Assembly (NCBI GenBank): GCA_017624645.1
Contig: JAGAMQ010000106.1
Location: 1 to 11,915 of the forward strand
Source: Oscillospiraceae bacterium
GTDB lineage: Bacteria > Bacillota > Clostridia > Oscillospirales > Oscillospiraceae
Reading direction: 5' to 3'
DNA: 11,915 bases
The position numbers were made by a program, and so were the translations under genes. The notes under the pieces are model-generated. The model saw nothing but the letters and a program-made list of their open reading frames with translations, was not told the DNA's origin and did not search any database. Below, piece by piece: positions 1,996 through 8,030 of the stretch. Every line of letters begins with the position of its first letter. Position 1 is the stretch's first letter.

Positions 1996-2673
1996 TTACT
2001 CCAAAATGTCTGCCAAGGTGGCTTTTCCCTCTTGGATGCCTTGGCAGACCTGCCGGTACAGGGTGCTGTAAAACGCCTCCGCCGCCTTTTTGTGCTGCTG
2101 TGCCATGGCGGCACCGGAAGCGGTGTAGAAGGTGTCGTACAAGGGCTCCAGCTTTCGCTTATATTCCTGAAAAAAGGATTTTGCCGGATCTGCCGTACCG
2201 TCACTGGGCAGGCCGTCGGGACGGAGGGTGTACAGGGGATGGTCATTTTGTCCCTGATACTGCAGGGTCCGGGCAATGCCGATGAGACCGGTCACATCCA
2301 GCTTGTCCGCATCAAAGAGGATCATTGCCTCAATGGTGCGTGGCGTACAGCGGTTGCTGAACCGGTGGGTGCGGATGCAATGGCAGACCTTTTGGATAAA
2401 ATCCTCTTCCAGACCCAATCCTGCAAGAAAATCCCCGGCCTTTTCTTCCCCTACCTGAGCATGGCACAGGGTGGGGTCGGCAAGCTGTTCCGGCCTTCCG
2501 ATATCGTGAAGCAGACAGGCAGCTATAAGTACATCGTAATCCACATCTGTTTCTGTGGCAGCGATCTGCAAACCATTCCACAGCACCCGATACACATGCT
2601 GGGTATCGTGGGCGCTGCCGTCCATGCAGCTGTACATATAGCTTTCTATGGCGTCAAAAAGCTCCCGTTTCAT
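1996..2673 (-). CDS. HD-domain phosphohydrolase (225 aa)
   Basis: A small HD-superfamily protein, which in this superfamily usually means metal-dependent hydrolysis of phosphate esters such as nucleotides or signalling nucleotides. The minus-strand protein has the metal-binding set in order: H26 (HDTQHVYRV), H56-D57 (CLLHDIGR) and D121 (LFDADKLD). A further conserved-looking histidine pair, CHCIRTHRFS, lies near residues 97-104. Length and motif order resemble the YedJ/YpgQ-like group of single-domain HD proteins. There is no signal peptide or membrane segment. The start at 2673 is supported by AGAGGTG, six bases before the ATG. It is divergent from the MATE gene with only 101 bases between them and shares a terminator with the convergent MBL-fold gene. 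Substrate is unknown. Confidence 0.9.
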   Translation of the reverse strand: MKRELFDAIESYMYSCMDGSAHDTQHVYRVLWNGLQIAATETDVDYDVLIAACLLHDIGRPEQLADPTLCHAQVGEEKAGDFLAGLGLEEDFIQKVCHCIRTHRFSNRCTPRTIEAMILFDADKLDVTGLIGIARTLQYQGQNDHPLYTLRPDGLPSDGTADPAKSFFQEYKRKLEPLYDTFYTASGAAMAQQHKKAAEAFYSTLYRQVCQGIQEGKATLADILE

Positions 2674-2690
2674 GGTATCACCTCTTTTTC

Positions 2691-5017: not shown

Positions 5018-5051
5018 AAAAAAACGCCACCGGACGAAAATGTCCGACGGC
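5018..5051 (-). terminator. Second of two tandem minus-strand terminators
   Basis: Minus-strand arms GCCGTCGGAC and GTCCGGTGGC pair over 10 positions (two G-U) around ATTTTC, followed after one base by seven T (5024-5018). Confidence 0.85.
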
Positions 5052-5101
5052 AAAAAAGAAATGACCCTTGACTGATTACTGGAACCTCAGTCAAGGGTCA
5101 T
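5052..5101 (-). terminator. Terminator of the orphan minus-strand transcript
   Basis: A perfect 15-bp stem (arms 5061-5075 and 5087-5101) with an 11-base loop, followed on the minus strand by TTTCTTTTTT. On the plus strand there is no comparable T-run, so it terminates minus-strand transcription. Confidence 0.9.
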
Positions 5102-5482
5102 CTCTGTTCACTCTTGATATCTAACATCTTTGGTTAACCTCTCTTTCTACAGTTTTACGACTCCGCTTTGCAACTACGCTCTGTCCTTCAACACCAACAT
5201 TACATCTTTTCATTTCTCATAAGCGAGAAGCTCATCTGTGTGGACTCTTTTGCAAGGGGTCGTATGGGGGAATGGCGCAGCCCAGTTTGTATCGGGATCT
5301 CCGGTCACATCCGCGTCTTTTTCCATCGTCTTACATGAACAAAACTTAAGTTAATCTTTTTGCTTAAATTTCCTGTCTACGAATGTGTTTTCTTCAAATC
5401 TATTTAAATTTCTGGATGAGGGAGAGATCCTTTCCTTTTTGCGCCTTGAGATCTACCTGTACATTGGTATCACCTCTTTGTG
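5061..5482 (-). ncRNA. Orphan transcript of about 430 nt, candidate structured non-coding RNA (possibly raiA-type)
   Basis: A consensus-like promoter (5488-5516) and a strong terminator (5052-5101) on the minus strand define a transcription unit with no reading frame longer than 38 codons. Local structure is visible in the RNA sense. CUU-GCAA-AAG inside GAC...GUC forms a GNRA-capped hairpin at about 5243-5261. UUCUC...GAGAA forms another at 5216-5231. GGTTAACC lies near 5132-5139, and TTGCAA occurs twice and could pair at a distance. A core of roughly 200 nt (about 5130-5336) is richer in GC and in purine-rich loops than the AT-rich 5' part. It is not tmRNA, SRP RNA, RNase P RNA or a T-box: their hallmark sequences are absent. 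Length, position and look of the core suggest comparison with raiA RNA of Clostridia, but I cannot confirm the family by eye. The unit is divergent from the YgjP-type gene. Confidence 0.6.
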
Positions 5483-5487
5483 TCTAT

Positions 5488-5516
5488 AAGATAACACAAA
5501 AAATACGGAAAATCAA
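5488..5516 (-). promoter_or_regulatory. Promoter of the orphan transcript
   Basis: Minus-strand TTGATT (5511-5516), a 17-base spacer, then TATCTT (5488-5493), which predicts a start near 5481. It is back to back with the promoter of the YgjP-type gene. Confidence 0.75.
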
Positions 5517-5591
5517 TATGTAAAATTGTATAAAATGCACTATGCAATTTGGTGCAAATGGGAGAAAACAAAGCATGCCACTGAAAAATCG

Positions 5592-7268: not shown

Positions 7269-7853
7269 ATGAGAAGAAGATTTGTTTGTGTGCTTATGGT
7301 AGTGGTGCTGCTTTACTGCACCGGTTGTTCCCTGAAGGGGGATTTGACCGGCACCTGGGAAGCAGAGGTGGATGCTCTGCACACGGTAGTGCCGAACCTG
7401 CCTGAAGGGCTGTCTGTGCTGAAGCTGGGAGCCATTCCTGTGGAGATCGTTCTGACCTTGACAGAGGATGGGGCGTTCACCCTCACGGTGAAGCAGGAAA
7501 GCATCCAAAAGGCGGAAGAAAATCTGTGGCAGCGGGTAGAGAAGCTGTTGGGAGAGAAGGATGGGGAAGTACAGGGCGCGGCTGCATCCTTGGAGGGACT
7601 GCTGGGCAGTGCCACGGATCAGCTGAAGGAAACCTTGGAGCAGGTTTTAGAGGATGCCCGGATTGAGGAGAAGATCACCGAGGCATATACCCGCAACGGC
7701 ACCTATGATTATGACGGAAAACAGCTGTTGCTTACAGATCAAAATGGGGACACGTTCCTGACCAGCAAATGCCTGCTGATTGGCGATAAGCTGACCTTGA
7801 CTGCGCCTTTTCCCGGAGTGGCCCTGCTGACTATGGAAAGAAACAAAGGATAA
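7269..7853 (+). CDS. Putative lipoprotein of unknown function (194 aa)
   Basis: A probable membrane-anchored lipoprotein. Residues 1-19 are a signal peptide (MRRRF then a hydrophobic run) ending in YCTG before C20, a lipobox with an unusual Cys at the -3 position. The mature part starts SLKGDLTGTWEAEVD, reminiscent of the GTW opening of small lipocalin-like beta-barrel proteins. A middle stretch rich in Glu, Leu and Ala (about residues 80-140) looks helical or coiled. The C-terminal part (NGTYDYDGKQLLLT, GDTFLTSKCLLIGDKLTLT) again looks like beta strands. I do not recognise a named family and assign no function. The start is chosen because AAAGGAGG is eight bases upstream; another ATG at 7262 is in a different frame. 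It is divergent from the class B sortase, but lacks a sorting signal and is not an obvious substrate. Confidence 0.8.
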   Translation: MRRRFVCVLMVVVLLYCTGCSLKGDLTGTWEAEVDALHTVVPNLPEGLSVLKLGAIPVEIVLTLTEDGAFTLTVKQESIQKAEENLWQRVEKLLGEKDGEVQGAAASLEGLLGSATDQLKETLEQVLEDARIEEKITEAYTRNGTYDYDGKQLLLTDQNGDTFLTSKCLLIGDKLTLTAPFPGVALLTMERNKG

Positions 7854-7904: not shown

Positions 7905-7943
7905 AAAAAAATACAGACACACCGAAGTGTGTCTGTATTTTTT
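7905..7943 (-). terminator. Terminator of tRNA-Leu with UUCG loop
   Basis: A perfect 17-bp stem (7906-7922 with 7927-7943). On the minus strand the loop reads TTCG, the very stable tetraloop, and the stem ends in a run of seven T. It starts right at the tRNA 3' end. The A-run and T-run also allow action on the plus strand. Confidence 0.92.
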
Positions 7944-8030
7944 GGTGGGCGAGGCGGGACTTGAACCCGCACGTCCGCAGTGAACACTAGAACCTGAATC
8001 TAGCGAGTCTACCAATTCCACCACTCGCCC
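7943..8030 (-). tRNA. tRNA-Leu (anticodon CAG), CCA encoded
   Basis: The minus strand folds as a type II tRNA. The acceptor stem is GGGCGAG with CTCGCCC, discriminator A, then an encoded CCA (7945-7943). The anticodon stem CTAGA/TCTAG encloses the loop TTCAGGT, so the anticodon is CAG, reading CUG. A long variable arm follows, and the T-arm is GCGGG-TTCAAGT-CCCGC. The total of 88 nt including CCA is right for leucine tRNA. It has its own consensus promoter and stands alone, not in a tRNA cluster. Confidence 0.97.

Follow-up and report, generated by a model that had tools for sequence, protein, structure and literature searches.

Very short translated units, or minigenes, are already known from several systems, the lambda bar minigenes among them, and dual-function RNAs such as SgrS and RNAIII carry a small open reading frame (ORF), although these ORFs are longer than the ones described here. 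In the Firmicutes, the 5' stabilisers known as STAB-SD place a strong Shine-Dalgarno sequence (SD) beside the 5' end of an RNA and need neither an AUG nor a stop; the RNA considered here has a strong SD near its presumed 5' end, and conserves both the AUG and the stop. The two-codon minigene of axe-txe, in the passages of that study drawn on here (PMC8708949), resembles our RNA in consisting of an SD and a start codon that is followed by a stop after one or two more codons. According to the same passages, ribosomes go on re-initiating on minigenes that have strong SDs, the shortest and UAA-ending minigenes being the most inhibitory, and ribosomes bound on minigenes may protect the RNA; strong SDs and UAA stops are tied to re-initiation and toxicity in that paper's discussion, and both features recur here. 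The axe-txe minigene, however, is part of an operon leader, acted in cis and not in trans, and did not inhibit growth when overproduced, whereas our RNA is a stand-alone transcript with a second conserved ORF and, in some genera, with minigenes in tandem. VcdRP (PMC8672173) also looks like a regulatory RNA and contains a small ORF, but that ORF has 29 residues, as against ORFs of 1 to 9 codons and arrayed starts and stops here. The fthC motif, a uORF attenuator in the part of PMC11109978 that treats it, shares the SD, the AUG, the stop inside a hairpin and the intrinsic terminator, but precedes a fixed main gene, which the present family does not. The raiA RNA, or ModT, is in the sections of PMC11706538 used here a structured RNA that Clostridia make as a separate transcript from a SigA-type promoter, as with ours, but the family in our DNA has no Rfam match to raiA.

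A stand-alone RNA with start-stop ORFs as its conserved parts was not found in the open-licence literature, a negative result that is weak evidence because most subscription journals and preprints lie outside that scope. The main text of a survey of new RNAs in 50 genomes (PMC11109978) contains neither "Oscillospir" nor "Ruminococcaceae". The family, from gut Clostridia, is apparently undescribed, and we rate the arrangement as new, its ingredients (minigenes, dual-function RNAs) being already known.

The transcription unit and its family

The window, by which we mean the whole stretch of DNA analysed, is 11,915 nucleotides of contig JAGAMQ010000106.1 from an Oscillospiraceae bacterium. Positions 5516-5052 of its minus strand are a complete stand-alone transcription unit, the window's one copy of the family. 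The unit opens with a -35 element, TTGATT (5516-5511), a 17-nt spacer and a -10 element, TATCTT (5493-5488), the promoter being accompanied upstream by a conserved A/T-rich stretch, TTTTATACAATTTTACATA, within 5488..5540; transcription presumably starts at about 5481. It closes with a terminator hairpin (5105-5057; 18 pairs, one of them G-U, and a 13-nt loop) and a run of six T (5057-5052). Both signals lie where the original prediction had put them, and the promoter keeps its position in those 101 of 130 copies from the genus Faecousia that a script could anchor, the copies from which the genus consensus was drawn. They are absent from a generic promoter and terminator scan because that scan accepts promoters with at least 9 of 12 matches (this one has 8 of 12) and terminator loops of at most 8 nt; what the scan did report is another terminator-like hairpin, with a run of seven T, immediately downstream of the first (5025-5052, minus strand). 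A strict 20-base promoter pattern, which captures a small part of the copies, occurs at 10 sites in 61 genus genomes, and nine of these coincide by their coordinates with covariance-model matches to the 3' block of the family; the tenth, L267, has no RNA and stands upstream of a seemingly unrelated gene with its own SD. The folding of a 446-nt stretch of the unit has a z-score of -2.52, with 1 of 100 shuffles equally good.

Known RNA families were sought in Rfam 15 scans of the window with nine related loci (E up to 1), of 18 loci (0.5) and of 10 loci (0.1). A single hairpin match, far below cut-off, falls over the unit in the window, and nothing above cut-off falls over the elements in the nine, 18 and 10 loci; the sub-threshold matches are mostly to the long terminator hairpin (e.g., mir-2363, 45.1 bits against a cut-off of 90). 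The suggestion that raiA RNA (RF03072) would be the first family to consider has to be given up, as it is missing from the listed matches of every scan. OLE, ROOL, GOLLD and other large Rfam RNAs were likewise rejected, with only a few hairpin matches below cut-off, and a trpB motif in L171 (36.4 bits, cut-off 59) proved on inspection to be two generic hairpins. The unit is not a tmRNA, as originally stated: Rfam gives no match and ARAGORN finds only a tRNA-Leu in the window (7943-8030, minus strand, anticodon CAG). The window also has a plus-strand ORF of 194 residues (7269-7853) that had no match in a Pfam search. Since there is no tmRNA and no Rfam 15 family above cut-off in the window, the fallback of the original prediction, that this may be something undescribed, holds.

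The unit is conserved in related genomes, one of the matters on which that prediction depended: a BLAST search at the DNA level matched 51 of 99 related genomes, belonging to 2 of 33 genera, and the matches agree at their two ends while diverging in the middle. A pattern scan of public species genomes gave at least 118 stretches, the titles among the matches listed being those of Oscillospiraceae, Clostridia and similar metagenome genomes, including Candidatus Faecousia species. The scan pattern contains GATGTTAGATA and so over-represents, in the genus set, copies with Leu-Asp at codons 2 and 3 of the downstream ORF; copies from the BLAST search and from model searches in other genera are less affected. 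Profile searches of all loci yielded 167 3' blocks, or 145 after removal of 22 duplicates, and both ends of the element were located in 132. With a covariance model of the 3' block, matches were obtained in 108 of the 121 genomes from the genus Faecousia, with up to six copies per genome, in 71 of 394 from the order (spread over 34 of 168 genera and 11 families), in 14 of 391 from the class (six further families) and in 1 of 398 from the phylum, the own genome being included in each set and the sole match in the last. These counts are lower bounds, since the stricter filters applied in searches of more than 40 genomes miss the weaker matches; no match was obtained in 13 of the 121 genus genomes, many of them incomplete, or in most of the order. 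As judged from sequence, the family is common in Faecousia and patchy in several families of Clostridia, and that it is a real family of RNA genes we regard as almost certain.

The start-stop mini-ORF and the variable interior

The 5' part of the RNA, near the presumed start, reads AAAGAGGUGAUACC and then AUG. In the window this corresponds on the minus strand to SD 1, AAAGAGGTGATACC (5466..5479), and mini-ORF 1, ATG TAC AGG TAG (5453..5464), both enclosed by a 5' hairpin (5448..5476) in the minimum free energy and centroid structures. The AUG is present in 99 of the 132 genus copies (33 lack it, two of which, L021 and L124, are clipped at the locus end), and in 89 of those 99 a stop follows in frame within three codons, as compared with 9 and 1 in the other frames; for interior AUGs, used as a control, an early in-frame stop was found in 101 of 518. 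The stop follows two further codons in 70 of the 89 and one further codon in 19, and it is UAA in 71, UGA in 9 and UAG in 9, while in ten copies the ATG is not followed by an early stop. Mini-ORF 1 is not one frozen sequence, because 42 different 9-mers follow the AUG and 35 of them keep a stop, versus 1 and 1 when the other frames are read. Of the 79 copies outside the genus, 72 had a promoter that could be anchored; the AUG is present in 52 of these and lacking in 20, and an in-frame stop occurs in 42 of the 52 (other frames, 3 and 1). An SD, an AUG, very few codons and a stop make up a minigene, and this is what 89/99 and 42/52 of the copies having the AUG possess.

Two to four mini-ORFs stand in tandem in 8 of the 79 copies outside the genus: four in L236, three each in L195, L169 and L246, and two each in L165, L171, L230 and L161, the last with an additional one that lacks an ATG. 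In these tandem counts, as in the alignment of 12 copies mentioned below, twelve bases are doubled at the joins of adjacent locus pieces; the counts of 72, 52 and 42 are free of this. Four loci from one family (L172, L173, L182, L197) have, in place of the start-stop ORF, a conserved-looking ORF of 13 codons that was translated by eye as MYT...TGR.

The SDs are near the maximum that the anti-SD permits. Calculated against a 16S rRNA tail whose sequence we have in part assumed, the median duplex energy is -16.0 kcal/mol for mini-ORF 1 (99 copies) and -15.8 kcal/mol for the second ORF, ORF2 (144 copies), compared with -10.5 kcal/mol for the best possible start of 136 flanking genes, 14 of which reach the mini-ORF median, and -4.3 kcal/mol for 660 random interior sites. 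An SD of the first type also serves ordinary genes, since an HD-domain gene in the window shares with mini-ORF 1 all 15 bases of its SD-to-start stretch (2673-2687, minus strand). The original prediction described the unit as lacking a protein gene, and with regard to a structured RNA in a unit of its own it was right, but it overlooked two tiny ORFs with very strong SDs.

We favour the view, with a probability of roughly 40%, that the main output of this RNA is the capture of ribosomes on its minigenes, in trans. The early in-frame stops, the tandem modules, the strong SDs and those copies that keep the translation signals with little interior all point in this direction; a role in trans is weakened because the minigene in the part of PMC8708949 referred to above acted in cis and did not inhibit growth. 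Also telling against capture are the copies that lack the ATG or an early stop, the genus genomes and the greater part of the order without a match, and the covariation of core helices described below.

Between the two ends lies an interior (5264..5447, minus strand, in the window) that cannot be aligned between most copies. By sequence similarity, the 132 genus copies fall into clusters of 53 (to which the window copy belongs), 23, 13, 3 and 2, the rest being single. Within the 53-copy cluster a core is closed by helix P1, whose 5' arm (5250..5263) pairs with its 3' arm (5157..5173). In a test that compared own with swapped strands, P1 gave -16.25 versus -10.87 kcal/mol with 0 of 2000 permutations as good, in 45 of the 53 copies (the other eight could not be anchored, and in a few of the 45 the anchor was misplaced). 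P1 occurs in mixed register in alignment A1, where 42.0% of its cells are paired. By the swap test it is a real helix in this cluster, held by compensating changes. Hairpin P3 (5213..5230, TTCTC-GCTTAT-GAGAA) has 79.1% of its cells paired in 37 copies, with both sides changed at all four pairs, and with its GCUUAU loop it is the sole core hairpin confirmed across relatives. Helix P2 (5183..5245, with 5238-5245 opposite 5183-5195) was placed by eye; its columns in A1 are 78.4 and 60.5% paired, and it is weakly supported because its swap test (43 of 53 copies; -9.10 versus -8.55 kcal/mol) gave 156 of 5000 permutations. A pseudoknot around P3 was dropped after inspection by eye.

Several families outside the genus carry in the interior the motif CACGRCGGUG...ACGY...AUAUAGAU, followed by a helix at the position of P1 and a P3-like hairpin (12 copies aligned). 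This domain, seen upstream of the 3' block in L165, L167, L169, L176, L178, L187, L188, L190-L194 and L252, is strongly conserved there but absent from the window copy; the ancestral RNA probably had it as a second structural domain. A pairing of CACGGCGGUGU with 16S rRNA, considered by eye, was dropped, as GRCG variants break it and the stretch also reads as a hairpin.

That core helices covary in many copies suggests a role for the interior itself. The alternative that we take most seriously, though we think it unlikely, is a structured regulatory RNA in which the interior is the effector, by base pairing or protein binding, and the SD and ORF modules protect the two ends. The compensating changes in P1 agree with this, as does the position of SD 1 a few nucleotides from the presumed start, where a bound ribosome would block decay by a 5' exonuclease in the manner of the Firmicutes stabilisers. 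A 5' hairpin protects likewise, and the copies without the AUG tend towards one: their 5' ends have a z-score below -1 in 24 of 33, versus 56 of 99 with the AUG, and a median z of -1.78 versus -1.17 (p = 0.045); they are also longer from the element start to the 3' block (median 334 versus 241 nt, p = 0.04). Shielding of RNA by minigene ribosomes is, moreover, suggested in the portion of PMC8708949 already cited. Against this, the AUG and its in-frame stop have been kept although a stabiliser needs neither, the modules are repeated in tandem, and there is almost no interior that could serve as an effector between the last mini-ORF and ORF2 in L195, in L236 and in the genus copy in L141, all of which keep the translation signals.

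ORF2, the terminator and the flanking genes

At the 3' end of the window copy, SD 2, AGAAAGAGAGGTT (5136..5148, minus strand), precedes ORF2 (5098..5127), which reads MLDIKSEQR and ends with a TGA inside the terminator stem. Across the family, AGAAAGAGAGGUU is followed by AUG UUA GAU, the beginning of a nine-codon ORF with the consensus MLDxKxxxK. In 219 readable copies (five of 224 were unreadable) the stop is at codon index 9 in 203, at 10 in 9, at 8 in 4, at 11 in 2 and at 15 in 1, the ATG giving index 9 having been preferred where several were possible; among genus copies with GATGTTAGA, 133 of 139 stop at index 9, by UGA in 79, UAA in 43 and UAG in 11. The terminator stem that receives this stop is paired in 98.1% of 1098 cells from 61 copies, with both sides changed at 16 of its 18 pairs; none of 500 shuffles scored as high, and slid controls were at most 51.5% paired.

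The variants of the ORF2 stop are matched by changes in the opposite arm of the stem, so that the stop stays in the stem as UGA, UAA or UAG. It is conceivable on these grounds, though quite unlikely in our estimation, that the RNA is a translation sensor, in which formation of the terminator hairpin depends on the progress of the ribosome over ORF2, whose stop lies in the hairpin's 5' arm, and in which the amount, length or decay of the RNA reports the capacity for initiation or elongation while the output comes from the interior. Some candidate uORF motifs do have their stop within a hairpin, the fthC motif in the part of PMC11109978 noted above being one, but a sensor of this type would be expected to have a consistent gene on the same strand downstream, and such a gene is missing. 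The downstream gene is on the same strand in 59 and on the opposite strand in 47 of the 106 genus copies with both flanks (a scored flank is missing in 26 of the 132), and in 12 and 13, respectively, of 25 loci outside the genus. With the upstream gene included and named first, and relative to the RNA, the genus copies are opposite/same in 32, same/same in 27, opposite/opposite in 24 and same/opposite in 23, and the 26 loci outside the genus are same/opposite in 10, opposite/same in 6, same/same in 6 and opposite/opposite in 3, with no downstream gene in 1. Ten of 51 flanking proteins from loci outside the genus belong, by Pfam, to unrelated families or to none. Since the neighbours differ and their strands look random, the RNA is not a leader or attenuator of a neighbouring gene; the original prediction was right in seeing here an independent structured RNA some 430 nt long. 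Other RNAs were seen near two copies, namely a T-box leader in L180 (806-1054, minus strand) and, just downstream of the copy in L192, a Gut-1 RNA (RF01706) and a tRNA, at 1806-1880 and 1690-1763.

ORF2 itself shows signs of selection on its codons at a few places. Single-base variants are synonymous in 10 of 11 cases at the Leu codon, 12 of 15 at Lys4 and 29 of 49 at Lys8, where 22, 11 and 11% would be expected, and the remaining codons vary freely; the overall synonymous fraction, 73 of 226 in frame against 94 of 386 in one shifted frame, is not decisive. The case for ORF2 consequently rests on Leu, Lys4, Lys8 and the kept stop, because the overall fraction is so near that of the shifted frame. 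A conserved small ORF within the RNA, as in dual-function RNAs, is present in ORF2, and it is very probable that both ORFs are translated. The original prediction had opposed a structured RNA to a protein frame kept by synonymous substitution; what is found is some of each, ORF2 keeping its Leu and two Lys codons synonymously and helix P1 being kept by compensating changes: a structured RNA that also has the appearance of being translated. The codon evidence would also suit a plain mRNA for a micropeptide, MLDxKxxxK, with the remainder as its leader, but we hold this to be improbable, for the other codons are free to change, the argument from the overall fraction is weak, and a long structured leader with minigenes of its own would be left unexplained. 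That the family is a small mobile element with conserved ends, as its copies (up to six per genome) in different places and with divergent interiors might suggest, is highly improbable, for conservation seems limited to the stretch from promoter to U-run, searches of phage and plasmid collections gave no match and nor did viral contigs with one pattern, so that a phage or plasmid origin was dropped, and some copies occupy inherited places, since 32 of 109 have both flanks in common with a copy in another record.

Proposed minigene RNAs in gut Clostridia

Comparison of the copies shows a family in which a conserved promoter is followed by a start-stop mini-ORF behind a very strong SD, then by an interior that varies and is often structured, and finally by a conserved nine-codon ORF with a very strong SD of its own, ending inside the terminator stem. 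The parts that persist across genera are the two micro-ORFs with near-maximal SDs, and the most constant feature is a signal for translation initiation followed by one for quick termination. The evidence for these parts is strong at the level of sequence, and the function is what we infer from them.

Under ribosome capture, our preferred reading, the RNA would act in trans by engaging ribosomes on its minigenes. A ribosome terminating on a minigene with a strong SD tends to start again in place, and short peptidyl-tRNAs drop off; on this RNA initiating ribosomes or tRNAs would be held in futile cycles and translation would be throttled or metered, while the interior might tune stability or provide contacts specific to each lineage. 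The RNA may be a natural ribosome trap or a translation sensor. More broadly, and more tentatively still, the Clostridia might possess trans-acting "minigene RNAs" that trap, recycle or count ribosomes and thereby set the capacity for translation.

If the ORFs are translated, common gut bacteria would be running minigenes, which are usually seen as inhibitory, as a regulator, and if the capture of ribosomes is true, this would be a natural and regulated use of minigene inhibition. The family also gives reason for caution in annotation, in that a "non-coding" RNA gene may have the initiation and termination of translation as its main conserved signal.
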